Shown here: in pieces, positions 319 through 30,125 of the stretch
Position numbering within the stretch: the first letter of the stretch is position 1
Layout of the letters: the number at the start of each line of letters is the position of its first letter
NCBI GenBank assembly: GCA_937944245.1
Contig: CALDYY010000072.1
Span: 1 to 64,000, forward strand
Length of the DNA: 64,000 nt
From: an uncultured Saprospiraceae bacterium
GTDB taxonomy: Bacteria > Bacteroidota > Bacteroidia > Chitinophagales > Saprospiraceae
Reading direction: 5' to 3'
Program-made: the position numbers and the translations under genes
The notes under the pieces: generated by a model
Told to the model about the DNA's origin: nothing
What the model saw: the letters and a program-made list of their open reading frames with translations, nothing else
Database searches by the model: none

Positions 319-2256
319 ATGAGCGATATTTTACAATTAGTTCTAATAGTAAAATACTCCTATAGACGTAGAAAATGTTTCTGTAAAGTTTTCATCGTTT
401 CATTCATTTTATGGTTACCGTCATTAGGCTGTATTGGTCAGAAGGTGCTAGACCTGAGAGAATACGATATTGAAAATATTAAAGACGCTACTCCTATCGT
501 AGTTAAAGCCTTGAAGAAGTGTAAGGAGGAAGGATTCAGTAAGTTGGTTTTTCCAAAAGGAACGTATCATTTCTACTCAACATTTGCTCAAGAAAGATTT
601 TGTGAAATCACAAACAACGACAATGGATTAAAAAGAACTGCATTTCCATTAATTGGATTTAACGACTTTATTATTGATGGCAACGAATCGGATTTTATTT
701 TTCATGGCAAGATGATACCATTTATAATAGAAGAATCTAGGAATGTTAAAATTACTAAGCTAAATATTGACTGGGAAGTGCCATTTACTTTAGAGGGATT
801 GGTTGTCGCCTTTGATGAAGTCAATCACACCTTTGACATTCAGGTAAAAACGCCTTATGTTGTGGAGTTTGGTCGCTTGTTCTTATCGTTAGAAAGAGAA
901 GATTCTCCATATGAAAGAAAGTATGGTCAGAGATTTGCCACTATGGAAAATTACAATATTGAGGTAGGGCAAAATATATTTTGGGATTCAAAGACAATGG
1001 CGCCTCTGTACAATACTAAGTTATATCAAATGCCGGAAAGTGGCATATATGCTAAAGAGTTAGAAAAAGGGCTGATAAGGATATCTACCAAAATCGAAAA
1101 ATTACCGCCTATTGGTTCAGTAATGGTTTCAAAGGGTAAATACTTACAGAATAGAACTAGTCCTGCGGTAAGGGTATTTAAGGCAAAAAATTTAGAATTT
1201 AAAGACATCAATGTTTACCATGCAGGAGCTATGGGATTGATAGCAGAGCGATCAGAAGACATCACATTGGACGGGTTTAATGTTGTGCTCAGAAAAGGAT
1301 CGGGTAGAATGGTGACAACGACGGCTGATGCAACACATTTTTGTAATGTGAAGGGAAATGTTACAATCAGAAATTGCACTTTCGAAAACATGCTTGATGA
1401 TGCAACGAATATACACGGTACTTATGTGAGGGTGAATAAAATAATAGATGACCATACTTTAGCTGTCGAAACTTATCATCCACATCAAAATGGATATTTA
1501 TTTGGTGAGGAGGGGGATACCATTAGGATAATTGATCAACATACTTTACAGCCTACTACCACTCTTTTGATAATAAAAAGAATAGAAAGGGTGAATGAAA
1601 AAATCTCTTATGTAACATTTGATAAACCTATATCCAATAAAGTTTCGCTCTATGACGGAGTTGAAAATGTATCATGGCATGCTTCCGCTGTAATAGAAAA
1701 TAATATAGTGAGAAACAATAGAGCAAGGAGTTTTTTAATATCTACTCCGAGAAAAGTAGTGATTAGAAATAATTATTTGTCCTCTCAAATGGCTAATTTC
1801 AGAATTACTGGCGACTTGGGGTTGTGGAATGAATCAGGACCGTGCGACGACTTAATAATTGAGAATAATCTTATTGAAAATTCGGGATATGGAGGCAATG
1901 GCATACAAGCTGTATTCTTGATAGACCCACAATATAATGACACCAGTAGGGTCGAAGGGTTTTACAGCCGCAATCTAACAATTAGAAATAACATAATAAA
2001 AACGTTTGATAATCCTATCTTACTTGCTATATCTGTTGATGGATTGGTTTTTGAGAATAATGAAATTATTCAAACAAATGCTTACAAACCCATTTTCCCG
2101 AATGCGAAGAATCTGAGAATTATAAACTGTAGTAATGTCAATATTAGTGGGAATATCTACAGAAGCATAAATGGTAAATCTAAGGGAACACTTACAGTAG
2201 ATAAAAAATCAAAAGATGTAAAAATTGGCAATAAAGATGATTTTGAATTAAAGTAA
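319..2256 (+). CDS. Right-handed beta-helix glycoside hydrolase, GH110-like (alpha-1,3-galactosidase family)
   Basis: Motifs matching GH110 as I remember the family: MGLIAERSEDITLDGF, ADATHF, MLDDATNIHGTY, RNNRARSFLISTP. Paralogue of 24747..26690. Confidence 0.82.
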   Translation: MSDILQLVLIVKYSYRRRKCFCKVFIVSFILWLPSLGCIGQKVLDLREYDIENIKDATPIVVKALKKCKEEGFSKLVFPKGTYHFYSTFAQERFCEITNNDNGLKRTAFPLIGFNDFIIDGNESDFIFHGKMIPFIIEESRNVKITKLNIDWEVPFTLEGLVVAFDEVNHTFDIQVKTPYVVEFGRLFLSLEREDSPYERKYGQRFATMENYNIEVGQNIFWDSKTMAPLYNTKLYQMPESGIYAKELEKGLIRISTKIEKLPPIGSVMVSKGKYLQNRTSPAVRVFKAKNLEFKDINVYHAGAMGLIAERSEDITLDGFNVVLRKGSGRMVTTTADATHFCNVKGNVTIRNCTFENMLDDATNIHGTYVRVNKIIDDHTLAVETYHPHQNGYLFGEEGDTIRIIDQHTLQPTTTLLIIKRIERVNEKISYVTFDKPISNKVSLYDGVENVSWHASAVIENNIVRNNRARSFLISTPRKVVIRNNYLSSQMANFRITGDLGLWNESGPCDDLIIENNLIENSGYGGNGIQAVFLIDPQYNDTSRVEGFYSRNLTIRNNIIKTFDNPILLAISVDGLVFENNEIIQTNAYKPIFPNAKNLRIINCSNVNISGNIYRSINGKSKGTLTVDKKSKDVKIGNKDDFELK

Positions 2257-2290
2257 AACATAATTTTTCAAAATATTAAAATAAAGGATA

Positions 2291-5200
2291 ATGAAAAGAA
2301 TATTACTAATCTATGTAATTGTTGCATTATGTGTACAATTTGCATATTCACAAAAAAATGTTTCCGGTATAGTGACGGATAATACGGGTAATACGCTACC
2401 CGGCGTAAATATTTTAATTAAAGGTACTGACACTGGAGGGATTACTAATTTTAATGGAGCTTATAGCCTTGATGTAAAAGAGGCAGAATGTGTCCTAATA
2501 TTTTCTTACACAGGTATGAAATCAAAAGAGATTTTTTATAATGGGCAAGAAAAAATTAATGTTATCTTAGAAGAAGAAGCCAATATTTTAAATCAAGTAG
2601 TAGTTATTGGCTACCAAGAGGTTAGAAAAAGAGATTTGACTGGATCTATCAGTTCTGTGGGTGATAGCTTAATTCAAGTGTCAAAAACGCCTAACTTGTT
2701 TGATGCCATTCAAGGACGCATTGCGGGGGTCAATATTGTGTCGTCTTCGGGAGAGCAAGGAGCTGCGGTGAATTATAATATTAGAGGTTCTAATTCTGTC
2801 TTTAGTGCAGGTTCGCCATTGTTTATCATTGATGGTGTACAAATTGATATCAATCAGAATGAAGTTGCGAGCGCTGGTGTAGGTTCGGTCGCTCCTATGG
2901 ACCCGCTTGCTACTATAAACCCTCTTGATATACAATCAATAGAAGTTTTAAAAGATGCTTCCGCCACTGCTATCTATGGTTCACGAGGGGCGAATGGTGT
3001 TATCATTATCACTACCAAAAGTGGAAAAGAGGGTCAACTAAGATTTGAATACATGGGGTCTCTTGGTTTTGCAAATGCGGTCAACAAAATAGAGTTAATC
3101 TCACCAGAGGAATATTTGACTTATAGAAACCTTCGAGATCCTGGAAATCCATTTACAAACTTAGCTGATGGTACGCCGAGAGACTTCTCTAACATATCTA
3201 GTGTAAACTGGCAAGATAAAGTGCTAAGAACGGCAAAGGTTCAAAATCATAATATTAACGCAAGTGGAGGCTCAAAAAATACAAATTTTTCGGCTAGCCT
3301 TGGATTGTTACAACAGGAAGGAATTATTATAGATAATAGTTATGATAAATATAACTTTAGGATAAATACATCGCATAGGCAATCTGAGAAGTTGAACTTT
3401 GGTTTCACACTCAATAGCTCCTTTACCGAATCGCGAGGAGTAGCCAACAGCGGTGGTGGAGGGGACGAATTTAATGGCGTAGTACAATTTTTAGTGCTTT
3501 CAAATCCTTGGGAACTTACCGATTTAACGCAACAAGAAGAAACCAGTCAAGATTTTCTTTCGCCATTGTCATTAATCTATGAAGGTGAGAAAAAGCTAAG
3601 GTTGAATAGAACTATTGGTTCTTTCTTTGGGGAATATGACATAACCAAACATCTAAAATTTCGGTCTCAAGTCGGCGCTAATTTCAGTAATTCTAAATTA
3701 CAAGAATTTCATTCATCAAATAGTTTATTTGGTTGGCGATGGAACGGAAGAGCCTTGCTAAGACAAACTGAAAGTTACAGCTATAATTATACAAGTACCT
3801 TACGTTATACCAAAACCTTTAATAGAAAGCATTGGGTGAATGTCTTAGGTGGCTTTGAATTATCAAGCTATAATAATGAAACTTTCTTTAATGATATTAT
3901 AGATTTTGACAATCAGGGGGTGGGTTATAATGACATAAGTGTAGGTCAAGTATTTAAAAGTTATGGCTCCGATCGAATTTTTTCTAACAGAATATCTGCA
4001 TTTTCACGCCTGAACTATACCCTAAAAGGAAAATATCTTTTTACACTTAATCTAAGGGCTGATGGTTCGGATAGACTCGGCAGGGACAATAGGTGGGGCT
4101 ATTTTCCGGGAGGCGCTTTCGCGTGGAGAGCTAGCAAAGAAAATTTTTTGAAAAATATTTCACAAATCAATGAATTAAAGTTTAGAGTTAGTTACGGACA
4201 AACAGGTAATGAAAGGATACCTCCTTTTAGCTATGCAGCAAGATTAAATAATGCTTTTTATGCAGATAATGACAACCTCATATTAGGGCTAGCTCCAAGC
4301 ACTTTAGAAAATCAGAGTCTTAAATGGGAAACAACAAGCCAATTCGATATTGGATTTGATTTAAACTTATTTAACAACAGAATGAATATTGTATTTGATT
4401 ATTACAATAAATTAACATTTGATATGTTAGTTAATGCTCCAATTCCGGCACAAACGGGCTTTAGTGCACAATGGCAAAACTTAGGTAAACTACAAAATAA
4501 AGGTGTGGAATTAACCATAAGTACCGTAAATGTGCAAACACCTAAATTAAGATGGTCAACAGATTTCAATATCTCACATAACGCAAACAAGATAAAGGAT
4601 TTAGGAAACGTACAATTTATCCCTACAATAATACCTGGAGGATGGATTACCAATCCTGGAAGAGTAGTAGTAGGACAACCTATCGGTACAATGTATGGAT
4701 ATGTATTCGATGGCATTCATCAAATTGACAATAAAGAAGGTGCTGTGCCAGGTACAATTAGATACAAGGATTTAAATAACGATGGCAAGATTGATGATAA
4801 AAATGATAGAACCATCATAGGGAACTCTAACCCTTTACATACAGGCGGTATAAACAATAGCTTCTCTCATAAAAATATTACTCTTTCTATGTTTTGGCAA
4901 TGGAGCTATGGCAATGATGTCTTTAATGCAGCTTTATTAAGAGTAAATGGATTCCAACCATTTATGAATATTACTAAAAACTATTATGAAAATGCCTGGA
5001 CAAAAGATAATCCATCAAATACAGCACCAGCTTTTGGTAAGGTCGCACCAGTGCCTTCGAGTTATTTTGTAGAAGATGCATCCTTTTTAAGGCTAAAGAC
5101 TGCAAATTTATCTTATGATTTTCCTGGAAAAATCTTTAAAGGGTATCAAGTCAGTTCTCTGAGTTTGTTTTTGTCTGCTAACAATTTATTGACTTTTACT

Positions 5201-5317
5201 AAATACTCAGGCTTTGACCCAGAAGTGAGCTCAAATAATGTTTTATTAAGAGGCTTTGAAAGGTTTTCCTATCCTAGAAGTAGAACTATAATTTTTGGTT
5301 TAAATTTAAAATTCTAA
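2291..5317 (+). CDS. SusC/RagA-family TonB-linked outer membrane protein
   Basis: Signal peptide, N-terminal carboxypeptidase-like domain (GIVTDNTGNTLPGVNILIKGT), plug motif IEVLKDASATAIYGSRGANGVIIITTK, followed by SusD. Confidence 0.97.
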   Translation: MKRILLIYVIVALCVQFAYSQKNVSGIVTDNTGNTLPGVNILIKGTDTGGITNFNGAYSLDVKEAECVLIFSYTGMKSKEIFYNGQEKINVILEEEANILNQVVVIGYQEVRKRDLTGSISSVGDSLIQVSKTPNLFDAIQGRIAGVNIVSSSGEQGAAVNYNIRGSNSVFSAGSPLFIIDGVQIDINQNEVASAGVGSVAPMDPLATINPLDIQSIEVLKDASATAIYGSRGANGVIIITTKSGKEGQLRFEYMGSLGFANAVNKIELISPEEYLTYRNLRDPGNPFTNLADGTPRDFSNISSVNWQDKVLRTAKVQNHNINASGGSKNTNFSASLGLLQQEGIIIDNSYDKYNFRINTSHRQSEKLNFGFTLNSSFTESRGVANSGGGGDEFNGVVQFLVLSNPWELTDLTQQEETSQDFLSPLSLIYEGEKKLRLNRTIGSFFGEYDITKHLKFRSQVGANFSNSKLQEFHSSNSLFGWRWNGRALLRQTESYSYNYTSTLRYTKTFNRKHWVNVLGGFELSSYNNETFFNDIIDFDNQGVGYNDISVGQVFKSYGSDRIFSNRISAFSRLNYTLKGKYLFTLNLRADGSDRLGRDNRWGYFPGGAFAWRASKENFLKNISQINELKFRVSYGQTGNERIPPFSYAARLNNAFYADNDNLILGLAPSTLENQSLKWETTSQFDIGFDLNLFNNRMNIVFDYYNKLTFDMLVNAPIPAQTGFSAQWQNLGKLQNKGVELTISTVNVQTPKLRWSTDFNISHNANKIKDLGNVQFIPTIIPGGWITNPGRVVVGQPIGTMYGYVFDGIHQIDNKEGAVPGTIRYKDLNNDGKIDDKNDRTIIGNSNPLHTGGINNSFSHKNITLSMFWQWSYGNDVFNAALLRVNGFQPFMNITKNYYENAWTKDNPSNTAPAFGKVAPVPSSYFVEDASFLRLKTANLSYDFPGKIFKGYQVSSLSLFLSANNLLTFTKYSGFDPEVSSNNVLLRGFERFSYPRSRTIIFGLNLKF

Positions 5318-5321
5318 TAAA

Positions 5322-6950
5322 ATGAAAAAAATAAAAATTTCTTTTCTAGCTATAATTTCTTTTATGGCATTCTCATGCCAAGATTTTATTGACACTGAGC
5401 CGTTTTCTTTTGTTAGTGTTGATAACTTTTACAAAACTCCTAGCGAAGTCGAACTTGCACTAACTGGTGTTTATAATGTATTGAGTGCTAATGAAGTAGG
5501 TCAAGGATTCGGCAATAATTCAACTTTTTCGAGAAATCTAATGCTTATGCTTAACGGTGCCACTGATGAGGTACTTGGTAGAGATAACAGTTTAAACCCA
5601 GATTATGTAGTATGGGGCAACGCAACGTTTACTGCGCAAAGCAACTTTTTAAATGAGGCTTGGATATTTTTGTATTCAGGAATTGCTCGAGCTAATTATC
5701 TCATAGAGCGAATTGAGCCTGTAGAAGGATTCCAAGGGGATAGAAAAAAAGAAATCATCGCAGAAGCTCGATTCTTGAGAGGGTTTTATCATATGATGCT
5801 TTCCATGATGCATGGTGGTATTCCTTTGGTTACCTCTACAAATGAAAATCCAAAAAAACCGCGCAATTCCATTCAAGAAGTATATAAGCAAATAATCGAA
5901 GATTATGAATTTGCTTACAACAACTTGAAAAATAGAGCTGCAATGCCTAGCCGAGTGAATAAGTGGACTGCTGCTGGCTTCTTAGCTAAGGCGCATACTT
6001 ATTTAGCGAGCAACAAAGTGTCAAAATCTAATAGCTTCATTACTATTAATAGTTTTGATTGGGTTGATAGTGATTTGCACTACTCAAAAGCATTAAGTTA
6101 TACCGAAGATATTATTGCGAATAGTGGTTATCAGCTAATACCTAATTATGACTACTTATTTAGAGAATCTACGAAGAAACAACAATACCAAGAAACGTTA
6201 TTATCTGCTGAGGCTAGTTCTAATTCTACTGTTAAAGCAATAAACCTCCTTTCTTACACATTTACGCCACTAGGAAATGTAAATGTCACAGGTGGTGGTT
6301 ACGGTTGGTTTCGACCAACTCATGAGTTATACGCATTATACAATAGCGGTGATTTTAGGCGTAATCATAACTTAACAGGAAATATTAACAATACCAATAA
6401 TGTGGAAATAATCGAAGGTGTACGGTACTATGCACCTAGACCAATACCGAATACCAACGTAGCTTTTTATTGTACTGGCAAATATAGAACGATTGATCCA
6501 GCAGCCAAAACAATTCCTAATTGGGCTTCAAATATCAATTTACCTATCTTGAGATATGCAGACATATTATTATTACACGCTGAGGCTCTTTATTTTAAAG
6601 GTAATGAAGCAGAGGCAAGAGATGTACTTTCAGAGATTAGAAAGCGTGTTGTACTTAATAGTTCTTCACTGGAACAACTCAATGATGCCTACAGAAGGGA
6701 TAATTTCTTAGATGAATTACTTGAAGAGCGTTCTCGAGAATTATGTTTTGAGAGTTGGAGAAGAATAGATTTGGCTAGATTTAACAGATTTAATCAAACA
6801 ATTGAGAATATGTCAACGACAGAAGGTTTTTATAATAAAGCTATCGTTCCAACGATTAAAAGTAACTGGATGCCTGAACGTGTTTGGTTACCAATACCAA
6901 TTATTCAGATTGACTTAAACCCTAATTTAGTTCAAAATCAAGGATATTAA
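5322..6950 (+). CDS. SusD/RagB-family nutrient-binding lipoprotein
   Basis: Lipobox (FSC), N-terminal SusD pattern, LRYADILLLHAEAL motif; directly follows SusC. Confidence 0.96.
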   Translation: MKKIKISFLAIISFMAFSCQDFIDTEPFSFVSVDNFYKTPSEVELALTGVYNVLSANEVGQGFGNNSTFSRNLMLMLNGATDEVLGRDNSLNPDYVVWGNATFTAQSNFLNEAWIFLYSGIARANYLIERIEPVEGFQGDRKKEIIAEARFLRGFYHMMLSMMHGGIPLVTSTNENPKKPRNSIQEVYKQIIEDYEFAYNNLKNRAAMPSRVNKWTAAGFLAKAHTYLASNKVSKSNSFITINSFDWVDSDLHYSKALSYTEDIIANSGYQLIPNYDYLFRESTKKQQYQETLLSAEASSNSTVKAINLLSYTFTPLGNVNVTGGGYGWFRPTHELYALYNSGDFRRNHNLTGNINNTNNVEIIEGVRYYAPRPIPNTNVAFYCTGKYRTIDPAAKTIPNWASNINLPILRYADILLLHAEALYFKGNEAEARDVLSEIRKRVVLNSSSLEQLNDAYRRDNFLDELLEERSRELCFESWRRIDLARFNRFNQTIENMSTTEGFYNKAIVPTIKSNWMPERVWLPIPIIQIDLNPNLVQNQGY

Positions 6951-6981
6951 TTAAACTAAAATAATTTAAAACACTAACGTT

Positions 6982-8265
6982 ATGAAAATAAATTATCTTA
7001 TACTGCTTTTTTTACTATTTAAAGTAGGTCTGTTTGCACAAAACAACGATTTTACTAATGCTAAAGAGAACAAGCTCTGGTCTGATGCTGAAAATTGGTC
7101 GCTTAAAGTTGTACCTGATACACTGAATACAGCGGCTGTTCGACTACCACTTTTGGTTGAGTCAATGGTGGACTTGGATGTTAGTGTCAAGAAAATTCAG
7201 AATCTCTTTGGAACTGCTGGAAGAGTATCTGTTGCTGGTGATAAAACCTTGACCATTAATCCAAAAGCAGCTAATGCCATAGGAATAGAAAATGTATCAA
7301 ACAATAACACCAAATTATCATTTAAGGGCAAAGTTACCATCAGCAATTCGGCTGGGTTTACACGTTTGAAACATACAAATGGAACAGCAAACATTATTGA
7401 ATTTGAAGATGGTTCATTGCTAACACTCAAAACGCCTTTAGAAGTATTTTCTGGTTCAAGTAATGACTTTAAATTTAATGGCAAAATTGTAGGTAGTGCT
7501 AACTTGAGATTAGCTGCCAATACCGAATCTACATTTGGTAAGACCTCATCCAACGATGGCTATTTGGGAGAGATTGTTTTCTTGCTTAATTCTAAATTGA
7601 TTGTCAATACAGCAGATGACAGTATCTTTTACAATGGACCTAAATTACAAGTCAACGGTAATAATGCATCCATTGTACTAAATGGGGCTAACGTTTTTGC
7701 TTCAAGTATCATAGTTGGAGGTGCTAATACATTTACGGTTAATGCTAACAAGAACCAAAGTAATATGCGTAACATAGGATTTTCTGCTAATGGAATCCTC
7801 AACCTTGTGGTTGCTGATAGCGTAACCAACCTTTCATTTAAGGATAATTCGGAATTAGATTGGAATGCAGGCACTCTTAAAATAACAGGATTTAAAGATG
7901 GTGTTATTCGTTTTGGGACAGATAACAAAGCACTAACGGAAACACAATTATCTAAGATTATGGCGGACAATGATGTTAAGAATCTAGCACTGGATAGTAA
8001 CGGGTATTTGGTGGATAAAAGCACTTTATCAAATATTACTTTTGAGAGTAAAGTTGCAATGCCAATTATTCAGTCAACTCTAACATCCAACACACTTAAT
8101 TTTAATACACCACAAGATAATGTTAGAATAGTGGATTTGAACGGTAGAGTCGTTTTCAATAAAAGAGCACAACATCTTTCAGAGGTAGATATTAATTTTT
8201 TATTGCCAGGTCTGTACTTCGCTATTTTTGACAACAACAAAGTAGAACGATTTATTAAAAATTAA
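6982..8265 (+). CDS. Secreted protein with T9SS type A C-terminal sorting domain; probable beta-solenoid, function unknown
   Basis: Signal peptide; C-terminus VRIVDLNGRVVFNKRA...LLPGLYFAIF..KVERFIKN is a T9SS tail; repetitive strand-like body. Confidence 0.8.
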   Translation: MKINYLILLFLLFKVGLFAQNNDFTNAKENKLWSDAENWSLKVVPDTLNTAAVRLPLLVESMVDLDVSVKKIQNLFGTAGRVSVAGDKTLTINPKAANAIGIENVSNNNTKLSFKGKVTISNSAGFTRLKHTNGTANIIEFEDGSLLTLKTPLEVFSGSSNDFKFNGKIVGSANLRLAANTESTFGKTSSNDGYLGEIVFLLNSKLIVNTADDSIFYNGPKLQVNGNNASIVLNGANVFASSIIVGGANTFTVNANKNQSNMRNIGFSANGILNLVVADSVTNLSFKDNSELDWNAGTLKITGFKDGVIRFGTDNKALTETQLSKIMADNDVKNLALDSNGYLVDKSTLSNITFESKVAMPIIQSTLTSNTLNFNTPQDNVRIVDLNGRVVFNKRAQHLSEVDINFLLPGLYFAIFDNNKVERFIKN

Positions 8266-8271
8266 AATCTT

Positions 8272-10947
8272 ATGCGGCAATTCATTTGCGTTATCTTATT
8301 ACTTTCAGCGTGGCATTCTTACAGTCAATTAGGAAAGGTGCCATCCTTTTTCAATATTCAACGAGATACACCGTTAGTAGAATTAACTACAACAATTACA
8401 GTATCCGTTGCAGATTATGATGCAAGGGTAGATGATGGAGTAGATGATATTGCCGCTATAAAAAAAGCTATTGATGCTGCTGCAATATTAGCCTCTTTAC
8501 AGAATCCTGTGCGATTACTTTTTGAAAAGGGTACATATGACCTGATGCCTGATTTGAGCAGCTCCCATGCTATTGAAATGAAAGATGTTAATGGTTTAGT
8601 ATGGGACGGACAGGATGCAGTATTTTTGTTGCACAATCCGAGTGTTGGTTTTTTGAGCCTTTTGAGATGTAAAAATACGATTATCCGAGATTTTTCGGTA
8701 GATTATGCTAGTTTACCTTTTACACAAGGCAAGATAACTAAAGTAGAGGCTGCAAGTGGTTATTTTGAATTTAAAGTGGATGACGGTTTTCCATTGCCCA
8801 CCGAAAGTGTTTTTGCGGACGCGCCTGAGCGATGGGGAATGATAAAAAACGCTAATGGTTCTCTCAAAAAAGGAACACCCAATCTCATTGCTCATAAAAG
8901 ATTTTTTGAATTGGTCGCTCCAAGAACATATAAGTATGCCAATCAATTAGGAAACTTAAATAATGTCGCTGTTGGTGACTACTTCGTTCACATAGCAAGA
9001 AATAATGGAAGAACTATCATTAGGAATAATAGTGGTAAAAATTTAACATATTTCAATATCACTGTACATGCGAGTCCCGCAGGAGGATTTAACGCCTTCA
9101 ATAGCGAAGAATGGAATATCATCAATTCAAAAATCAAACTTAAAGAAGGTAGAGTGCATACTTTAAATGCTGACTGTATTCATGTGAATGGAGGATACAT
9201 AGCACCTTGGGTAGAAAATTGCCTTTTTGAGGGAAATGCTGATGATTGTGTAAATCTGAAATATACAAAAAGAGTGATTAAAGCAGTTCATAGCTCAACA
9301 CAACTTACAGTAGAAGGTAACGTTTTTTTACAGGAAAATATAGAATTTTACAATCCTAGAGATGGATTGATTTTAGGAAATGCAGAGGTAACTAAAGTTG
9401 AAAATCTTGGAAGTAATTTATACAAAATCACGCTATCTAACCCTATAAATATTACAACTATTAGAGACCCAGACCATCAATCTACTGATAAAGCCTATGT
9501 AGAAAGCCGTTCTAATCAATCTTTTATTTTTAGAAATAATATAGTTCGCAATACAAGAAGATATGGGTTATTGATTCAAAGTAAATATGCACTAATAGAG
9601 AATAATCTTTTTGAAAATTTGAGTAGTGCTGCAATATCAATACAAAATGGAGTGGATTGGGGGGAAGGATACCGAGCGACTGATATTGTGATTGATAAGA
9701 ATACCATGATAAATTGTGGTTTTGATACTTCATATAAAAAAGAAGAAAACTCCGCTGCTATAAAAGTAGATTTTATGAAACTTGGACGGCCTTGTAATAC
9801 ATCCACTAGATGGTGCGGTGATGTAACTTCAGACGCGCAAGGGCACAGTAACATTATAATAACTGACAATAAAATTATTTATAATAAAAAAGGAGTTTAT
9901 TTAAAAAATATAAATGGTTTAAAACTTCATAATAATTTTATATGCCACTCAGGACAAGATATTAATCTTGGTAGTAATGACAGATCCATTCCTCAGACTA
10001 TTCTGAATAGTAGCAATGTATCAATTATAGATTTTAATTATACATTGCCCAACGCAGATTTACATTTCGTTTTAGACGAGATAAGTTCTGATGAGACAGT
10101 AATCAACAGAGGTGCTAACAGCAATATAAATTTAAAAATTAATACTCAAAGCAATGAATTCATTATTCAGGGGCATATTGATAGAGAGGTTGGTTATTGT
10201 ATGGCAGTAAAGACCGAAGGAAATGGAAATCTAACTTTAGTGGATAGCACTACCGGACAGGCATTTGTAGGAGCTACATCAAATGCGGCAAGGTCTTATG
10301 CCTTTTGGTTAAAACCCGAAAAAAAAGTTTTTCAGACATTACTATTTAGTGGAGGTCCTTCTGAAGGAGAGGTATTTTCTATACAGATGCAGTCAAATAT
10401 GGTAGTAAGGGTAACTGATAACAATAATAATTTTGTATTGATGGCAGATATGCCTTTGGATATAAATGCTTGGAATCATATTGTTGTTAGTGTACCAGAA
10501 GGAGGTAATATACAGGATATTTCTCTGTATAAAAATGGCATTCCTTCTTCTGAAACATACATTGGATTTAATGATAAAATCAATACCACTGCACGCCCCA
10601 TACTCTTTTTTCCCAGATTTGAAGGAAAGATAAGTGATATTAGGTATTTTGAATATAGCCTGTGCAATGGTGAGGTGAATGAAATATTTAAAGATAGATA
10701 TATCTCTGAGATGACAAGTTTACCTACTACAAAAAAACATACCATTGGAGTGTATCCAACGATTGCTACTAATAGTATTTTCTTTAGTGATCCGATTACT
10801 TCGGTTGAAGTTTTTGATTTACAGGGTAAATCGGTATTGAAAAAGGAGGGTTTAGCTCTTGAATTTACAGATATTACTACTATTGATGCTGGTTTTTATA
10901 TTGTAAAAATTAATAAATCACAAATTGTGAAAATAATAAAAAAATAA
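8272..10947 (+). CDS. Right-handed beta-helix protein with LamG-like domain and T9SS tail; distant GH110-like
   Basis: Beta-helix repeats; NADCIHVNGG...FEGNADDCVNLK motif; LamG-like segment (SYAFWLKP...WNHIVVSV...LYKNG); T9SS tail VEVFDLQGKSVLKKE...GFYIVKI. Confidence 0.8.
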   Translation: MRQFICVILLLSAWHSYSQLGKVPSFFNIQRDTPLVELTTTITVSVADYDARVDDGVDDIAAIKKAIDAAAILASLQNPVRLLFEKGTYDLMPDLSSSHAIEMKDVNGLVWDGQDAVFLLHNPSVGFLSLLRCKNTIIRDFSVDYASLPFTQGKITKVEAASGYFEFKVDDGFPLPTESVFADAPERWGMIKNANGSLKKGTPNLIAHKRFFELVAPRTYKYANQLGNLNNVAVGDYFVHIARNNGRTIIRNNSGKNLTYFNITVHASPAGGFNAFNSEEWNIINSKIKLKEGRVHTLNADCIHVNGGYIAPWVENCLFEGNADDCVNLKYTKRVIKAVHSSTQLTVEGNVFLQENIEFYNPRDGLILGNAEVTKVENLGSNLYKITLSNPINITTIRDPDHQSTDKAYVESRSNQSFIFRNNIVRNTRRYGLLIQSKYALIENNLFENLSSAAISIQNGVDWGEGYRATDIVIDKNTMINCGFDTSYKKEENSAAIKVDFMKLGRPCNTSTRWCGDVTSDAQGHSNIIITDNKIIYNKKGVYLKNINGLKLHNNFICHSGQDINLGSNDRSIPQTILNSSNVSIIDFNYTLPNADLHFVLDEISSDETVINRGANSNINLKINTQSNEFIIQGHIDREVGYCMAVKTEGNGNLTLVDSTTGQAFVGATSNAARSYAFWLKPEKKVFQTLLFSGGPSEGEVFSIQMQSNMVVRVTDNNNNFVLMADMPLDINAWNHIVVSVPEGGNIQDISLYKNGIPSSETYIGFNDKINTTARPILFFPRFEGKISDIRYFEYSLCNGEVNEIFKDRYISEMTSLPTTKKHTIGVYPTIATNSIFFSDPITSVEVFDLQGKSVLKKEGLALEFTDITTIDAGFYIVKINKSQIVKIIKK

Positions 10948-10950
10948 ATC

Positions 10951-14152: not shown

Positions 14153-14160
14153 AATGTAAA

Positions 14161-21548: not shown

Positions 21549-21569
21549 AAGACTAATTTTTAATTTTTT

Positions 21570-24500
21570 TTAAAATGAAATTGTTAAACCAAATGTGACG
21601 GAACGATTGATAGGGTAGGAGTTATAATCAATCCCTACATCAGCATCTTGATTATTGACTGATAGCGGCGTTGCCGTTGATTCTGGATCAAAACCAGTAT
21701 ATTTGGTGAGAATAAATACATTTTCAACACTAGCGTAAATTCTGCATTTACTCAAACCTACCTTACTCAAAAGTTCATCACCTACGTTGTAGCTTAACGC
21801 AATGTTCTTCAAGTTTGTGTAAGAACCGTCCTCTACAAATTGGGAAGACAAAATTTGTGTTCCATTTCTGCTGGAAGGTATATTGCTAGGATTGGTCGGC
21901 GTCCATCTATTATTGAAATCAGCATGTACAGCGTGAAACTGTTCCGCACCTAAGCCCATTAATCTAGCTCTTTGTAAATTGTATATTTGATTGCCTTGAG
22001 CACCTGTGAACAGAAAGTTTAAGTTCCAATTTTTAAAATTGACATCCCAGTTCCAACCCCAAACATAATCTGCATTACCATCTCCAATTGTTGTAATATC
22101 ATCCGTAGTGATTTTTCCATCAGGAATGCCATTTGGACCACTCACATCTCTATATTTGGCTTGTCCAGGAGTACCGTCAGTTTCTCCTGTTTGATAAACA
22201 CCTTCAAAGATGTAACCTCTAAATGAACTTATGGGTAACCCAACTTCTACTCTTGTGGGGTTAACAGGAAAAGTATTTTCTCTAATTCTGTCGCCCACTT
22301 CAATTGCTTTTACATCATCAAATAATGCCAATACTTTATTCTTGTTGCTCGCCAAACTTAGTGTAGCGTTGATACTCCAATTTTTGTTTTGGATTATTCT
22401 CGTACCTAATGTCGCTTCAAATCCTTTGTTTTCGACTTCACCTGCATTCACAAATTTACGAGTTGGACCAACAAAAGAGGGTAGTTGGGTATCCAACAAC
22501 AAATCAGTGGTATTTTTTTTGTAGTAATCGAAAGATAAGGTGATAGCGGATTCATAAAGTCCTAAGTCAAATCCCGCATTAATCTGCGCTGTTTTTTCCC
22601 ATGTTAAATCTGGATTAGCCACTCTGTTTGAAGGAGCTACCCCCGTTGACAAAGTGCCGTTGAATGGATAATTAATCGCTTGATTTATTACTGCTCGTGA
22701 GCGAGTACCAAAAACACCAATAGCTTGGTTACCCACTTGCCCATAACTTACTCTGAATTTTAGGTTATCAATGGTCTCAATATTTTTAAGGAAAAGTTCC
22801 TCAGATACCCTCCAAGCTAAGGATGCTGATGGAAAATATCCCCATTTATTATTTTGAAAAACGCTAGTTCCATCTGCTCGCATAGATAATGTCAATAAGT
22901 ATTTATTGTACAATGAATAGTTGATACGTCCTAAAAATGATTCCAATTCTCTATTTGACTCTCTGGTGTCGGTACGCTGCACTGCTGCGATGGACAAATC
23001 TTTATAGGTTACTAAATCTGTAAAAAAGTTACTAGCTTCCAAAATGGCTGTATTACTTCTCTCTTGAACCATTTCGTGAATTGCATCAATCTTGATATTA
23101 TTATTTTTGTTAATGTCAAAATTATATGTGAGTCTATTGGTGTTGAATAAATTTGTAGCATAGAGATTTTCTACCGTAGCCAAACCATTCCTTGAAGAAA
23201 TAATGGGCTGGTATCTGTTGTTTTGTCTAAGATTATTTACAACGCCTGCCGAGCTATTTAAAACAAGATTTTTGGTAATCTGGTAATTAAAGTATCCCGT
23301 AATATTCAGTCGGTTTAAATTATTATTCCTAGAATTGAAATTAGGAGCAATTAATGGGTTAACTTGTGAAGTAGCTACATTTTTTAATGAATTAAAATTG
23401 TAGTTACCATCTTTGTCAAAGGCTGGAGTAGTAGGGTCAAACGAAAGACCAACACCCAAGTCTGCTCTTTCACCCTCTAACACCTCATTGCGCACGTTAA
23501 AGTTTAAACCTACTTTAACTTTCTGGTTAAGTTTTGTATTAAAATTAGCCCTTAAGTTTAAGCGTCTAAAATATTGGTCGAGCACAGTTCCTGTTGTCTC
23601 ATAAAAATTACCTGAAATATAATAATCTGTACTTTCATTACCGCCACTGGCAGCAATTTGAGCATTATTAAATCTAGCTGTTTGGAACAATCGTTTTTGC
23701 CAATCTTCGCCCCCATTTGTACGTAGTGCATCAAGTTCTGCTTGGGAATAGGCTTGTGAAAACGGCAGGTTTGGATCATTTGGATCTCTACCTTCTGCAA
23801 AATTTACACCGAGAGCAAAATCGTACGCATTCATTAATGGTAACTTTTGAGTGACATCGGCATATCCCGAAAAAGCATCAATCGTAATTTTGGCTTTGCC
23901 TTTGCTGCCGCTTTTGGTAGTGATTAAGACCACTCCATTGGCTCCTCTTGTTCCATAGATAGCTGTAGCCGAAGCATCTTTTAACACTTCCATAGAAGCT
24001 ATATCATTCACATTGACTGCCGATATATCAACAAACTGACCATCTACAACATACAGCGGCTCGTTGCCTCCTGTAATGGAGTTGGCACCTCTAATGCGTA
24101 TTTTAAAGCCACCTCCAGGTGCACCACTTGTCTGGGTAACTTGTACACCTGCCGCTCTACCCTGCAATGCTTGGCTTACATTGTTTAATGGTTGTTTATC
24201 AAAATCCTTCGCCGAAATAGATGTTAAAGCCCCCGTCAAATCACTTCTTCTGGCTGTACCATACCCAACCACAACTACTTCGTCTAATTTTGTGGCATCT
24301 TCTACTAATGATACATCAATAGTGGTTTGGTTATCCACTACTTTTTCGACAGTTTTAAATCCCAAAAAGCTAAAAATAAGTGTTTGTCCTGATGAAGCAT
24401 TGATAGTGTATTGACCATCAATATCAGTAATAGTCCCCTGAGAAGTACCTTTTACAATAATACTTACACCAGGCATTGTTTCGCCATCAGCATTGGAGGT

Positions 24501-24602
24501 AACTTTTCCTTGTATGGTCATTTGACTAAATGCGGATGAGAAACCAAAAAGCAAAATTTGAGCAACCCAAAGTTGTTTTTTTAGTAAATAATTTTTTTTC
24601 AT
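21570..24602 (-). CDS. SusC/RagA-family TonB-linked outer membrane protein
   Basis: N-terminal carboxypeptidase-like domain; DEVVVVGYGTARRSDLTGA; IASMEVLKDASATAIYGTRGANGVVLITTK. Confidence 0.97.
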   Translation of the reverse strand: MKKNYLLKKQLWVAQILLFGFSSAFSQMTIQGKVTSNADGETMPGVSIIVKGTSQGTITDIDGQYTINASSGQTLIFSFLGFKTVEKVVDNQTTIDVSLVEDATKLDEVVVVGYGTARRSDLTGALTSISAKDFDKQPLNNVSQALQGRAAGVQVTQTSGAPGGGFKIRIRGANSITGGNEPLYVVDGQFVDISAVNVNDIASMEVLKDASATAIYGTRGANGVVLITTKSGSKGKAKITIDAFSGYADVTQKLPLMNAYDFALGVNFAEGRDPNDPNLPFSQAYSQAELDALRTNGGEDWQKRLFQTARFNNAQIAASGGNESTDYYISGNFYETTGTVLDQYFRRLNLRANFNTKLNQKVKVGLNFNVRNEVLEGERADLGVGLSFDPTTPAFDKDGNYNFNSLKNVATSQVNPLIAPNFNSRNNNLNRLNITGYFNYQITKNLVLNSSAGVVNNLRQNNRYQPIISSRNGLATVENLYATNLFNTNRLTYNFDINKNNNIKIDAIHEMVQERSNTAILEASNFFTDLVTYKDLSIAAVQRTDTRESNRELESFLGRINYSLYNKYLLTLSMRADGTSVFQNNKWGYFPSASLAWRVSEELFLKNIETIDNLKFRVSYGQVGNQAIGVFGTRSRAVINQAINYPFNGTLSTGVAPSNRVANPDLTWEKTAQINAGFDLGLYESAITLSFDYYKKNTTDLLLDTQLPSFVGPTRKFVNAGEVENKGFEATLGTRIIQNKNWSINATLSLASNKNKVLALFDDVKAIEVGDRIRENTFPVNPTRVEVGLPISSFRGYIFEGVYQTGETDGTPGQAKYRDVSGPNGIPDGKITTDDITTIGDGNADYVWGWNWDVNFKNWNLNFLFTGAQGNQIYNLQRARLMGLGAEQFHAVHADFNNRWTPTNPSNIPSSRNGTQILSSQFVEDGSYTNLKNIALSYNVGDELLSKVGLSKCRIYASVENVFILTKYTGFDPESTATPLSVNNQDADVGIDYNSYPINRSVTFGLTISF

Positions 24603-24746
24603 TGTTTTAAATGCTTTTACGTTAAGTTTAAATTGTGAAAAATCAAAAGCTGCTTTACTAGGACTGTAATGGTTAACCCATCTTGATTAATGTATTTTAG
24701 TTCTAGATAACATTGTTCCTTTCTCAAACTTAGGTTTATGGCTTAT

Positions 24747-26690
24747 TCAAGGGTTTTTACTAAAGGCATCGCCATTCACTACTTTTACATTGGTTGACTT
24801 CGGGTCTATTGATATTGTACCCTTTTTCCCATCCAGACTTTTGTAAGTGTTTCCTTTAATGACTACATTGTTGCAGTTGATGATTTGCACATTTTTGGCA
24901 TTAGGGAATATTGGCTTGTACGTATTGGTTTGAATTATTTGGTTATTTTCAAAAATTAACCCATCAACAGACATAGCAACTAATATGGAATGGTCAAACG
25001 TTTTAATGACATTATTTCTAATCGTAATATTCTTGCTGTATTTGCCTTCAAAATTATCTACGTCCACATATTGAGGGTCTATTAAAAATATAGCTTGTGC
25101 ACCATTACCTCCATAGACACAATTTTCGATTACATTATCTTCTATGAGTAAGTCATTACAAGGACTTGATTCGTTCCACAAATTCAAATCTCCTGTGATT
25201 CTAAAGCATGCCATTTGAGAGGAAAGGTGATTTTTTCTTACGATAGCTTTCTTGGAAGTTTTGATGATAAAACTTCTAGCCCTATTATTTCTTACTATAT
25301 TTTTTTCTATTATTGCTGAAGCCTGCCAAGATAAGTTTTCCACACCGTCATAAAGGGCTACTTTACCTGTAATTGCTTTGTCAAATGTAATTAAGGTTAT
25401 CTTTTCATTTATCCTTTTCACTCTTTTTAGTATGAGCGGTTCTGTGGTGGGTTGTAAGTTTTTCTGATCTACAATTTGCACCGTATCGCCAGCCTCACCA
25501 AATAAAAAACCATTTTGATGTGGATGGTAAGTTTCTACGGCGAGGGTATAATCGTCAATAATTTTATTCACTCTTACGTAAGTGCCGTGTATATTCGTCG
25601 CATCATCAAGCATGTTTTCAAAAGTGCAATTTCTGATAATGATAGTACCCTTTACATTACAAAAGTGAGTAGCATCAGCAGTGGCAGTAATCATTCTTCC
25701 AGAACCTTTTCTCAATACGACATTAAACCCATCAAGCGTAATATCTTCTGACCTTTCAGCAATCAACCCCATTGCGCCTGCATGGTAAACATTAATGTCT
25801 TTAAATTCTAGGTTTTTAGATTTCAATACTCTGAACGCAGGGCTAGTCCTGTTTTCTAAATAGTCGCCTTTACCAACCAATACTGAACCAATAGGAGGAA
25901 GTTTTTTGATTGAAGTTGAAATCCGAACCAATCCTTTTGCTAGTTCTTCTGCTCTAACGCCTCTTTCAGGTATAGCATATTGGTTCGTGTGATACAATGG
26001 AGCCATTGTCTTTGGGTCCCAAAATATATTCTCACCAATCTCTAAATTGTCGTGTTCCCAAAAGGCAAATCGTTTACCATACTTTCTTTCATATGGAGAA
26101 TCTTCTCTTTCCAAACAAAGGTATAAATGTCCAAATTCAACAGTGTATGGTGTTTTGATTGCTATATCAAAAGTGTTTTTATCGGCATCAGTGGCTACTA
26201 CTAATCCTTCTAATGTAAATGGAACTTCCCAGTCTATGTTTAGATTAGTAATTTTAATATTGCTACAATGCTCAATCATAAATGGCACCATTCTGCCATG
26301 GAAAATAAAATCTGAACCATTCCCATCTATCACGAAATTATGAAAACCAATCAGTGGGAATGCGGTGCGCTTCAAGCCATTATCATTATTGGTGATTTCA
26401 CAAAACCGCTCGGGTGCGAAGGTAGGGTAGAAATGGTAAGTACCTTTTGGAAAAACCAAAGTGCTAATCCCTTCTTCCTTACACTGCTCAAGGGCAGCAA
26501 CCACGATTTCAGTTACATCCTTAGCTTCGGAGATGTTAAAATGTTTTAAGTCAAGGACTTTTTGACCATAACTTACAAACACTTGGCTTAAGAAAATGAA
26601 ACCAAAAATTATTAGTTTGATGGAGATGAATGTGGGGAATCGAAGAGATACATTTTCCGCATGGACAATTTTACTTGCTCTGTTTACCAT
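24747..26690 (-). CDS. Right-handed beta-helix glycoside hydrolase, GH110-like
   Basis: Same motifs as 319..2256 (MLDDATNIHGTY, ADATHF); long identical blocks such as KNLEFKDINVYHAGAMGLIAERSEDITLDGFNVVLRKGSGRM. Confidence 0.82.
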   Translation of the reverse strand: MVNRASKIVHAENVSLRFPTFISIKLIIFGFIFLSQVFVSYGQKVLDLKHFNISEAKDVTEIVVAALEQCKEEGISTLVFPKGTYHFYPTFAPERFCEITNNDNGLKRTAFPLIGFHNFVIDGNGSDFIFHGRMVPFMIEHCSNIKITNLNIDWEVPFTLEGLVVATDADKNTFDIAIKTPYTVEFGHLYLCLEREDSPYERKYGKRFAFWEHDNLEIGENIFWDPKTMAPLYHTNQYAIPERGVRAEELAKGLVRISTSIKKLPPIGSVLVGKGDYLENRTSPAFRVLKSKNLEFKDINVYHAGAMGLIAERSEDITLDGFNVVLRKGSGRMITATADATHFCNVKGTIIIRNCTFENMLDDATNIHGTYVRVNKIIDDYTLAVETYHPHQNGFLFGEAGDTVQIVDQKNLQPTTEPLILKRVKRINEKITLITFDKAITGKVALYDGVENLSWQASAIIEKNIVRNNRARSFIIKTSKKAIVRKNHLSSQMACFRITGDLNLWNESSPCNDLLIEDNVIENCVYGGNGAQAIFLIDPQYVDVDNFEGKYSKNITIRNNVIKTFDHSILVAMSVDGLIFENNQIIQTNTYKPIFPNAKNVQIINCNNVVIKGNTYKSLDGKKGTISIDPKSTNVKVVNGDAFSKNP

Positions 26691-26940
26691 AAAGAAGAAG
26701 AATAGCTTATAATTTAATTTAAACTGCGAACTAAAACTACGTAAAGGTATGTAGCAATTTTAAAACCAATGTTTTCATATGTAGCATAGCGTTACTGTAA
26801 TGTAACATTTGCAATTTTTTTTGGTATTCGTTATTAAATTCTTTTTGTAGAAAGTTATTTTTGAGATGAGTTGAAAGTGTTGTAGGGTAGAAATGTTTAA
26901 ATAGACTCAAATTTGTTAATTAATCATAAAAATTGTTTTA

Positions 26941-28503
26941 ATGAGATTAATTGTTTATTCCAGAATAGCACTATGCTTATTTTTAGCCACATTATTAACC
27001 AATTGCGAAATAGAAGATGCTAGTGAAGAAGGTGAGCTTAGTTTACCAAACATACTAATAATTTACACCGATGATTTAGGCTATGGCGATGTGAGTTGCT
27101 ACACAGCTACGGAGTTAAAAACGCCTAACATTGATGCCTTAGCAAAAGGTGGAATAAAATTTACCAACGGATACGCTACTTCAGCTACCTGTACACCAAG
27201 TAGATACGCTATACTAACGGGTATGTACCCATGGAGGAATACAGAAGCAAAAATATTACCAGGTTCGGCACCATTACTTATTGATACCAATCAAATGACA
27301 GTGCCAAAAATGTTAAAAACAAAAGGTTATCACACTGGTATAGTCGGTAAATGGCATCTAGGACTTGGCACTGGTGTTGTGAACTGGAATGAGCGGGTTT
27401 CTCCAGGACCAAATGAAGTTGGCTTTGATTATGCTTACATCATGGCTGCCACACAAGATAGAGTACCCACTGTTTACATTAAAGATGGTTATGTGGAGGG
27501 GCTTGAAAAAGACGATCCTATTTATGTAGATTATGAAAATAATTTTGAAGGGCAGCCTACTGGCAAAGATAACCCTGAACTTCTAAGAATGAAGTGGCAT
27601 CATGGTCATAATAGCAGCATAGTCAATGGCATACCAAGAATTGGATACATGAAAGGGGGAGAAAAAGCCAAATGGGTTGATGAGGATATGGCGGATAATT
27701 TCTTGATGAAGGCACAAACATATATTAAAGAAAAAGCCAAAGACAAAAAGCCTTTCTTCTTGTATTATGGTATGCAGCAGCCTCATGTCCCAAGAACGCC
27801 ACACCCAAGATTTGTGGGTAAATCAGGTATGGGACCAAGAGGAGATGTGATTATAGAAACTGACTGGTGCATTGGTGAATTGATAAAAACTTTGGAGGAA
27901 CAAGGAATCCTCGAAAATACTTTGGTTATATTTACTTCTGATAATGGTCCTGTGCTCAATGATGGATATTATGATGATGCAGTAGAACTACTAGGAAAAC
28001 ATGACCCAAATGGTGGTTTGAGGGGTGGAAAATACAGTCTTTATGAAGCAGGAACAAGAGTTCCTTTCATCACTTATTGGAAAGGTAGAATCAAGCCAGG
28101 AGTGAGTGATGCCTTAGTTTGTCAGATAGATTTTCTATCGTCTTTTGCTAGTCTTGTAAATAGTGATATTACAACGAGTGATAGTCAAAACTTTATAGAT
28201 TTATTGCTGGGAAAAAGTAATATCGGTAGAGAAGATCTTGTTATTGAGGCTACTACACGTACAGCATACAGAAAGGGGGATTATGTAATGATTCCACCAT
28301 ATGAGGGGGAAGAATTGAACAAACTGGTTAATATTGAGGTAGGGAATACACCTAATTTTCAACTCTTTAATTTAAGACTCGATCCAGGGCAAAAGAAAAA
28401 TATTGCTAAAGAAGAACCAGAAAGACTAGAAGCGATGATTACAGGTTTTAAAGCCATCAGAGGGGAAGATTATAATAAATTTGAAAAACTTATCCTCAAA
28501 TAA
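26941..28503 (+). CDS. S1-family sulfatase, lipoprotein
   Basis: NILIIYTDDLGYGDVSCY; TCTPSRYAILTGMYPWR; GKWHLG; SDNGPV; lipobox TNC. Confidence 0.96.
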   Translation: MRLIVYSRIALCLFLATLLTNCEIEDASEEGELSLPNILIIYTDDLGYGDVSCYTATELKTPNIDALAKGGIKFTNGYATSATCTPSRYAILTGMYPWRNTEAKILPGSAPLLIDTNQMTVPKMLKTKGYHTGIVGKWHLGLGTGVVNWNERVSPGPNEVGFDYAYIMAATQDRVPTVYIKDGYVEGLEKDDPIYVDYENNFEGQPTGKDNPELLRMKWHHGHNSSIVNGIPRIGYMKGGEKAKWVDEDMADNFLMKAQTYIKEKAKDKKPFFLYYGMQQPHVPRTPHPRFVGKSGMGPRGDVIIETDWCIGELIKTLEEQGILENTLVIFTSDNGPVLNDGYYDDAVELLGKHDPNGGLRGGKYSLYEAGTRVPFITYWKGRIKPGVSDALVCQIDFLSSFASLVNSDITTSDSQNFIDLLLGKSNIGREDLVIEATTRTAYRKGDYVMIPPYEGEELNKLVNIEVGNTPNFQLFNLRLDPGQKKNIAKEEPERLEAMITGFKAIRGEDYNKFEKLILK

Positions 28504-30125
28504 TGATAAATACTCAATCTAAAAAGTCCATGATTTTAAAAAACATCACAATGCTTTTAGTATTTCTCATGGCTACGTCATCTACTAACATAAGAAATCC
28601 CATAGAAATCACCAAAATTCAAAAACCAAACATACTATTCATATTAGTTGATGATTTGGGTTACCACGACTTAGGCTTTACTGGGAGTAAATATTACGAA
28701 ACGCCCAACATAGATGCCTTGGCAAAAAGAGGTACGGTATTTTCGCAAGGATACGCTAGTAGTAGAGTATGCAGCCCATCCCGTGCAAGCATAATGACTG
28801 GTAAATTTACAGCAAGACATGGTATCACAGACTGGATAGGGGCAAAAACGGGTAGCGAATGGCGAACGCTGAATAGGCACGACAAACTATTGCCTGCCGA
28901 CAATGTAGCTGAATTGCCTGCCGCTGAGGTTACCCTTGCAGAGGCTATGAAAGCGGGTGGATACAAAACATTTTTTGCCGGCAAATGGCATCTCGGAGGA
29001 GAAGGCTCTTCGCCTGAAGATCACGGTTTTGACATTAACAAAGGCGGATACCATAGTGGCAGTCCACTAGGAGGCTATTTTGCACCATTTAATAATCCAG
29101 TTTTAGATGATGGACCAAGTGGCGAAAATCTTACCATGCGATTAGCTATGGAGACCATGTCATTTATGAAGCAAAATCAAAATACACCTTTTTTTGCATT
29201 GCTATCCTTTTATGCTGTTCATAGTCCCATTCAAACTACTCAAGAAAAATGGAGTAAATATCGAGATAAGGCAGAAGCTCAAGGCATAAAGGAAACTGGG
29301 TTTAACATGGAAAGAAAACTTCCGATACGCCAAAATCAGGATAATCCTGTTTATGCTGGATTGGTGGAAAGTGTGGATGATGCTGTCGGTTTGGTTATGA
29401 ATGGACTACAAGCACTGGGATTGGATAAAAATACCATTGTTATATTTACTTCTGATAATGGTGGCGTAGCATCAGGGGATAATTTTTCTACTGCTAACCT
29501 GCCACAACGAGGAGGTAAGGGGTATCAATGGGAGGGGGGCATTAGAGTACCTTACGTCATTTATGTACCATGGGCTAACAAAAGTGGCAACGAAATTGAA
29601 TATCCTGTTACAAGTGCTGATTTTTTCCCTACAATTTTACATTATGCTAATCTTAATTTATTATCTAATCAACATATTGATGGCATCAGTCTAAGACCGC
29701 TCATAGAAAAAGGCAAAAAACCGAAAGAAAGAGCACTTTACTGGCATTATCCGCATTATGGTAATCAAGGTGGCGATCCTTCATCCATCATTCGCAAAGG
29801 AGATTGGAAGTTGATACACTATTATGAAGATGGGAAAAATGAGCTTTATAATCTCAAAACTGATTCTTCTGAAAAAATAAACCTCGTGGATATTCACCCT
29901 CGAATCAGTAATCAATTATATGCTAATCTAAAAAAATGGTTGGTCAGTGTAGGAGCAAAATACCCAATTCCTGATCCTGATTTCGACCCTGAAAAGAGAA
30001 AGGAGTACGAAAAGTCAGTAGTTGAGAAATTGTTGCCAAGATTAGAAAACGAAAGAAAAAATATGTTATCTAAAGATTTTCAACCTAATGCTGACTGGTG
30101 GGAAAGCAAAGCAACTAAAAATTAA
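28503..30125 (+). CDS. S1-family sulfatase
   Basis: NILFILVDDLGYHDLGF; VCSPSRASIMTGKF; GKWHLGGEG; TSDNGGVASG. ATG overlaps the previous stop (TAATG). Confidence 0.96.
   Translation: MINTQSKKSMILKNITMLLVFLMATSSTNIRNPIEITKIQKPNILFILVDDLGYHDLGFTGSKYYETPNIDALAKRGTVFSQGYASSRVCSPSRASIMTGKFTARHGITDWIGAKTGSEWRTLNRHDKLLPADNVAELPAAEVTLAEAMKAGGYKTFFAGKWHLGGEGSSPEDHGFDINKGGYHSGSPLGGYFAPFNNPVLDDGPSGENLTMRLAMETMSFMKQNQNTPFFALLSFYAVHSPIQTTQEKWSKYRDKAEAQGIKETGFNMERKLPIRQNQDNPVYAGLVESVDDAVGLVMNGLQALGLDKNTIVIFTSDNGGVASGDNFSTANLPQRGGKGYQWEGGIRVPYVIYVPWANKSGNEIEYPVTSADFFPTILHYANLNLLSNQHIDGISLRPLIEKGKKPKERALYWHYPHYGNQGGDPSSIIRKGDWKLIHYYEDGKNELYNLKTDSSEKINLVDIHPRISNQLYANLKKWLVSVGAKYPIPDPDFDPEKRKEYEKSVVEKLLPRLENERKNMLSKDFQPNADWWESKATKN

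Follow-up and report, generated by a model that had tools for sequence, protein, structure and literature searches.

How is the chain of a sulfated glycan opened by a locus in which no classic endo-acting enzyme can be recognised? The question is raised by a polysaccharide utilization locus (PUL) of an uncultured Saprospiraceae bacterium (genome of 3.8 Mb), whose open reading frames (ORFs) span positions 319–30125 of the stretch analysed here, namely bases 1–64000 of contig C72 (the window). Two SusC/D pairs (2291–6950 and 20031–24602) are accompanied by one hybrid two-component system regulator (HTCS) and by degradative enzymes, the gene content expected of a Bacteroidota PUL. An earlier, sequence-only reading had listed two GH110-like enzymes, two more distant beta-helix proteins, four S1 sulfatases, the two SusC/D pairs and the HTCS. 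All of these components were found where that reading had placed them, and we add to its description two sorting tails of the type IX secretion system (T9SS), carried by a 427-aa protein (6982–8265) and by BH891, one of the beta-helix proteins. Sulfated galactans form a major store of carbon in the sea, and knowledge of how Bacteroidota degrade them is only partial. This locus indicates a sister family of GH110, with catalysis intact and a rebuilt sugar pocket, in a rare, transferable PUL yielding galactose. We propose that it is a complete PUL under HTCS control, probably acquired by horizontal transfer, that serves to degrade a sulfated glycan of alpha-1,3-linked D-galactose, and we give this account, including the steps set out below, an even chance of being right.

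GH110 enzymes and their two beta-helix relatives

GH110a (319–2256, + strand) and GH110b (24747–26690, − strand), which are 71% identical and sister to each other in the tree (support 85), are canonical members of GH110, a family of exo-alpha-1,3-galactosidases; GH110a is predicted to be periplasmic. The GLAA-B barrel domains and the beta-helix of both score above the Pfam cut-offs (PF23763, PF23764 and PF13229 in GH110a), and both match solved GH110 structures over their full length (GH110a to 9beh, E = 1.5e-101). The active-site residues listed in PMC7939477 were mapped on P. carrageenovora GH110B, in which the residue numbers agree with those that the paper gives for PdGH110B. Both enzymes keep the catalytic D321, D344 and D345, the N85, R265, N348, R453, W486 and E488 of the galactose −1 subsite, and R451. 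The Pfam domains, the 9beh match and this complete active site confirm the GH110 identity that the sequence-only reading had given to the pair. The gate formed by positions 480 and 518 is R/T in the 6-sulfate-tolerant GH110A and E/D in GH110B of the lambda-carrageenan PUL of Pseudoalteromonas (lambda-CarPUL; PMC12549532). In both window enzymes it is T/D and position 480 varies; since this pair matches neither of the two, tolerance of a 6-sulfate is not readable from it. On the other hand GH110c, a third enzyme present in four relatives of the locus, carries precisely the R/T pair and clusters with GH110A. In the tree, the window GH110s cluster with marine-type sequences, apart from those of Parabacteroides, Phocaeicola and actinobacteria.

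The two beta-helix proteins, BH891 (891 aa; 8272–10947, + strand) and BH586 (586 aa; 10951–12711, + strand; predicted periplasmic, with orthologues 63–67% identical), are different. BH891 carries a LamG module (Laminin_G_3) and, alone among the enzymes encoded here, bears a sorting tail for export. Among solved structures, only those of GH110 are convincing relatives of the two proteins (E about 1e-18), and both keep the invariant Asp triad D321, D344 and D345 as well as N348, R451, W486 and E488. However, they are devoid of the 14-residue loop bearing N85, R265 is replaced by Asn, and R453 by Tyr. These three features are absent from all nine BH891/BH586 sequences and present in every true GH110 aligned. 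Furthermore, no GLAA-B barrel domain was detected in either protein above the Pfam cut-off, and a maximum-likelihood tree unites BH891 and BH586 with three proteins of haloarchaea and two remote ones of genome G541, in a clade distinct from all GH110s (support 100%). The residue at position 480 of this clade differed between two alignments and was not used as evidence.

The AlphaFold model of BH891, although of modest confidence (mean predicted local distance difference test score, pLDDT, of 57), matches GH110 structures at 1e-20 to 1e-24 (best 1.6e-24) and other beta-helices at 6e-7 or worse. A beta-helix, three aspartates and inverting chemistry are also common to BH891 and the GH87, GH49 and GH28 enzymes (clan GH-N type), some of which are endo-acting, but the matches of the model to that type are far weaker (best a polygalacturonase, 6e-6). 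Thus BH891 and BH586 share the beta-helix, the triad and the four further residues with the GH110 family (PdGH110B, GH110A, AgaBb), while the N85 loop, R265, R453 and detectable GLAA-B domains set the latter apart. Given the retained triad, the lost pocket features, the separate clade and GH110 as best fold match, the two are best described as catalytically competent-looking relatives of GH110 rather than canonical members. Therefore, of the earlier view that they are GH110-like, the kinship and the triad stand, whereas simple membership does not. The nearest non-Bacteroidota relatives found for the clade are the haloarchaeal beta-helix proteins L102, L103 and L104 (from Halorubrum, Halovenus and Halobaculum plasmids), in which the Asp triad is likewise present and the N85 loop missing.

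N85 contacts the galactose hydroxyls in the −1 subsite (PMC7939477); loss of its loop could therefore open the pocket of BH891 and BH586 and admit substituted or chain-internal galactose. Both endo- and exo-enzymes occur among the relatives of GH110 that share its catalytic machinery (GH87 alpha-1,3-glucanase, GH28, GH49; PMC7939477). BH891 is thus a candidate for the otherwise unexplained chain cut at the cell surface, and the clade a candidate new family; our literature searches found no description of it or of orthologous PULs. In the boldest form of this proposal, BH891 and BH586 would be the founding members of a new glycoside hydrolase family whose sister is GH110, and the exported enzyme, BH891, would act as an endo-alpha-1,3-galactanase on internal alpha bonds of a sulfated D-galactan; we consider this form rather unlikely. 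To our knowledge, the known endo-carrageenases cut the beta-1,4 bond.

Several observations weigh against the account that we propose. The missing N85 loop, R265 and R453 may instead point to a different sugar, or to substituted galactose handled by exo action. BH891 is not found in the Aestuariivivens and Leeuwenhoekiella PULs described below, and hence is dispensable, and the pLDDT of its model is too low to judge the shape of the pocket. Finally, the PUL contains no beta-galactosidase, so that for a galactan of alternating alpha and beta bonds this enzyme would have to come from another locus, for example as the GH2 encoded on contig C69.

Completeness of the locus and search for a chain cutter

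Bases 1–141 of the window match the start of contig C10 in reverse orientation without a difference, as is typical of contigs that overlap in an assembly. C10 encodes housekeeping proteins, among them ribonucleotide reductase, CorA and NAD kinase. On the right, a terminator-like hairpin downstream of groEL (30288–30319, − strand; 14 pairs and a T-run) separates the PUL from its neighbour GroEL (30344–31972, − strand), and a Pfam search of the other genes on this side revealed no carbohydrate-active enzyme. As housekeeping genes bound both sides, the PUL is complete; the absence of an endo-enzyme is no contig-edge artefact, and we reject the idea of one concealed past the junction with C10.

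The statement of the sequence-only reading that no classic endo-enzyme is visible holds for the locus: neither GH16 nor GH150 is found among its ORFs, and the only ORF left without a role is that of the 427-aa T9SS protein, GH82 not having been searched with a model. The single GH16 of the genome (contig C84) is glucanase-like with a Calx-beta domain, and was discarded as a possible carrageenase. Similarly, the protein next to GH110B in the P. carrageenovora locus, labelled GH150 by that position, had no match in this genome and five related ones, in a search that included no positive-control genome.

The 427-aa protein (6982–8265, + strand) matched no family other than the TIGR04183 sorting tail. 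Its sequence, of low complexity and rich in N, G and T, suggests a solenoid scaffold or binding protein. Its orthologues in three other PULs are 49–51% identical, and the invariant residues are mostly structural.

Could the cutter be encoded elsewhere in the same genome? Pfam detects no GH2 beta-galactosidase in the locus, and the GH2 located beside sulfatases belongs to a second sulfatase PUL on contig C69 (L038, L019). This PUL encodes SusC/D, FecR, GH39, GH2, three sulfatases (S1_16-, S1_15- and S1_8-type) and a T9SS protein of very large size, which combines pectate-lyase-like, CBM96, LamG and CBM6 modules; a Na/sulfate symporter lies near it. The very large beta-helix protein might serve as chain cutter for the window PUL, in line with the enzyme content of the C69 locus and with the 43–45% identity of two of its sulfatases to S1_15 and S1_16 of the window. 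However, with SusC/D and a FecR-type regulator of its own, the C69 PUL is probably a separate regulon, which leaves this option quite improbable.

Sulfatases, orthologous loci and the likely polymer

Each of the four S1 sulfatases contains the C-x-P-x-R formylglycine motif. The S1_15 enzyme (26941–28503, + strand; a possible surface lipoprotein) is closest to 7ozc (BT3109, S1_15; E = 8.5e-200) and matches S1_15A/B of lambda-CarPUL at E about 1e-143. BT3109 acts on 6S-Gal/GalNAc (PMC10154620), and we predict a Gal-6-O-sulfatase. The 540-aa enzyme (28503–30125, + strand) has the diagnostic S1_16 Trp (PMC11760155) at +21 from the catalytic Cys and, as closest structures, 6ust and 9fo1 (both S1_16; E ≤ 1e-109), which places it in S1_16 of SulfAtlas as a predicted 4-O-sulfatase; characterised members act on 4S-Gal or 4S-GalNAc, while one is termed a 6S-GalNAc sulfatase. 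The 464-aa enzyme (12758–14152, + strand; PF00884), with a lipoprotein-type signal, is also nearest to 9fo1 (E = 1.6e-76), but His replaces the diagnostic Trp and its assignment to S1_16 was rejected. Finally, the 533-aa enzyme (14161–15762, + strand; PF00884) is remote from all solved sulfatases. Its matches to S1_8A (9bb9) and SGSH (4mhx) are full-length but weak, and for this reason we call it only tentatively an S1_8-like 2-O-sulfatase.

A genome scan with BH586 identified orthologues in Aestuariivivens sediminis, Kordia periserrulae, Leeuwenhoekiella parthenopeia, one metagenome-assembled genome and two more genomes in Kordia's family. Among the Flavobacteriia, a few genomes thereby proved to hold orthologous PULs. 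Relatives of BH586 are rare: 1 of 398 genomes of the bacterium's own family (itself), 2 of 395 of its class (itself and one remote relative), and, as orthologues, 3 of 400 of Kordia's family. In the Kordia, Leeuwenhoekiella and Aestuariivivens PULs (L009, L035, L010, L036, L008 and L034) the orthologous genes are roughly 47–76% identical, with the HTCS lower in some, and their order is in part that of the window. GH110a, SusC1/D1, the HTCS and the S1_15 gene recur across these PULs, and in every case the 533-aa sulfatase comes after BH586, either adjacent to it or with the 464-aa sulfatase alone between them, as a modular cassette. Extras comprise GH110c, SASA-type esterases, a family of ~700-aa proteins, or galactose catabolism genes. 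A plasmid-borne GH110 PUL of Flammeovirga was rejected as an equivalent, because its gene set is different and includes GH16s and beta-galactosidases.

In Kordia, genes for an SSF symporter, galactokinase (GalK), galactose-1-phosphate uridylyltransferase (GalT) and a GalE-like epimerase come after the S1_15 gene and have the same orientation. These Leloir genes adjoining the PUL are strong evidence that its end product is D-galactose. The sampled orthologous PULs, in which not every ORF was annotated, showed no beta-galactosidase, hexosaminidase, sialidase, fucosidase or GH16; the remote G541 locus has GH29 and GH97, and the Kordia genome gave one weak GH2 match only. The lack of a beta-galactosidase implies either a polymer of mainly alpha-linked galactose or beta bonds cut by enzymes encoded elsewhere.

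As the GH110 pocket cannot accommodate 3,6-anhydrogalactose (PMC7939477), kappa- and iota-carrageenan and agar are unlikely direct substrates. The predicted 6-O- and 4-O-sulfatases together with the alpha-1,3-galactosidases would fit lambda-, mu- or nu-type galactans or other alpha-1,3-D-galactans, and a carrageenan-type galactan is plausible. The lambda, mu and nu types are carrageenans free of the 3,6-anhydro bridge. Lambda-CarPUL (Pseudoalteromonas distincta U2A/P. carrageenovora; PMC12549532) has in common with the window PUL two GH110s, an S1_15 6-O-sulfatase, several S1 sulfatases and galactose as end product. On the other hand, it alone possesses GH150 endo-lambda-carrageenases, a GH2 beta-galactosidase and three S1_8 sulfatases, as compared to at most one S1_8-like enzyme in the window (the weakly matching 533-aa protein), while SusC/D, the HTCS, S1_16 and the GH110-sister enzymes are peculiar to the window PUL.

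It is conceivable that the PUL works on carrageenan-type oligosaccharides (lambda, mu or nu backbone) already cut by other bacteria, with BH891 and BH586 as further exo-enzymes accepting sulfated or substituted galactose. The GH110s and S1_15 shared with the characterised lambda cascade, the Arg/Thr gate of the relatives' GH110c, the failure to find an endo-enzyme of known family, and the suitability of SusC/D pairs for oligosaccharides are all consistent with it. However, the two T9SS-exported proteins suggest processing at the surface, the PUL has no GH2, GH150 or GH127/129-type partner, and the cassette is paired with GH16 or GH150 in no sampled relative; we therefore see here a serious but minority possibility. 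A host or animal glycan (alpha-Gal epitope or sulfated mucin) would agree with the founding of GH110 by blood-group B enzymes and with the mucin-active Bacteroides enzymes among the nearest solved relatives of S1_15 and S1_16. Yet GH20, GH29/95, GH33, GH2 and GH35 were not found in the sampled orthologous PULs, and the marine-type grouping of the window GH110s also speaks against it, making such a substrate highly improbable. Of the substrate predictions of the sequence-only reading, sulfation and galactose are upheld by the four sulfatases and the Kordia neighbourhood, the carrageenan-like option is plausible, with GH150 and GH2 of the lambda cascade absent from this PUL and at most one S1_8-like sulfatase present, and the host-glycan option is weakened by the lack of hexosaminidase, sialidase and fucosidase in the sampled orthologous PULs.

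The ~700-aa proteins, 55–65% identical in three orthologous PULs (L010:5954–8065, L051:14643–16688 and L052:1645–3747), contain motifs such as GIGFDVNYF and ITADGW that suggest a hydrolase; they gave no Pfam or PDB match and a fold prediction of pLDDT 35, and, being absent from the genome of the window, were rejected as a general endo-enzyme. In genome G621, L052:8205–9905 encodes a further beta-helix-like protein that has a T9SS tail and a GDDC motif. The orthologous PUL of G621 is enlarged, with at least five sulfatases, SASA esterases and a glucuronoyl-esterase-like protein.

Proposed degradation route, gene arrangement and origin

In the degradation route that we propose, BH891 with its LamG module, perhaps together with the 427-aa protein, would cut or trim the polymer at the cell surface, and the two SusC/D systems, judging from their families, would import the oligosaccharides. 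In the periplasm, sulfatases would strip 6-O (S1_15), 4-O (S1_16) and probably 2-O sulfates from the chain ends, the first two being assigned from close relatives and the third tentatively. GH110a and GH110b, as their residues strongly support, would take turns with the sulfatases and free the exposed alpha-1,3-galactose termini through an inverting mechanism, while BH586 may take a unit that the canonical GH110s cannot handle. Finally, galactose would enter the Leloir pathway, as the Kordia neighbourhood indicates. The order of the steps is our suggestion. The orthologous locus in the type strain Kordia periserrulae DSM 25731 makes induction, knockout and enzyme tests directly possible.

The genes are arranged in a first + strand block (GH110a, SusC1, SusD1, the 427-aa protein, BH891, BH586, and the 464-aa and 533-aa sulfatases), a − strand block (HTCS, SusD2, SusC2 and GH110b) and the last two sulfatases on the + strand, so that both SusC/D operons start with a GH110 gene. 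SusC1 (2291–5317, + strand; TIGR04056, 868 bits) and SusC2 (21570–24602, − strand; 823 bits) are TonB-linked importers; SusD1, a surface lipoprotein (5322–6950, + strand), and SusD2 (20031–21548, − strand) both match PF07980 and PF14322. The HTCS (15790–19776, − strand) comprises Reg_prop, Y_Y_Y, HisKA, HATPase, response regulator and HTH_18 domains.

GroEL is 82–83% identical within its own family and 70–73% identical to that of Kordia, Leeuwenhoekiella and genome G557. The PUL proteins are 48–76% identical to those of Kordia, most of them 63–76% (for instance GH110a 75%, 533-aa sulfatase 72%, SusC1 70% and BH586 66%), with lower values (48–59%) for the T9SS proteins and the HTCS. The GC content of the PUL is 35.2% as compared to 38.6% in the rest of the window, and it is higher in the SusC2/D2 half than in the SusC1/D1 half. 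Because these fast-evolving proteins match Kordia about as well as GroEL does, BH586 was found in no other of the 398 genomes sampled from its own family and the GC content is shifted, the simplest reading is that the PUL was probably acquired horizontally, possibly as two modules.

Elsewhere in the window, a 975-aa ORF (51792–54719) had no Pfam match. Positions 1–56, and also about 59811–59857, belong to an abundant repeat with at least 38 further matches, 86–94% identical, in the same genome. Other copies of the repeat at positions 1–56 reach about 85 bp (TAGCGGGCTAAATGACTAAGCC...GCTCTAAG), and in several contigs a copy lies near one end.

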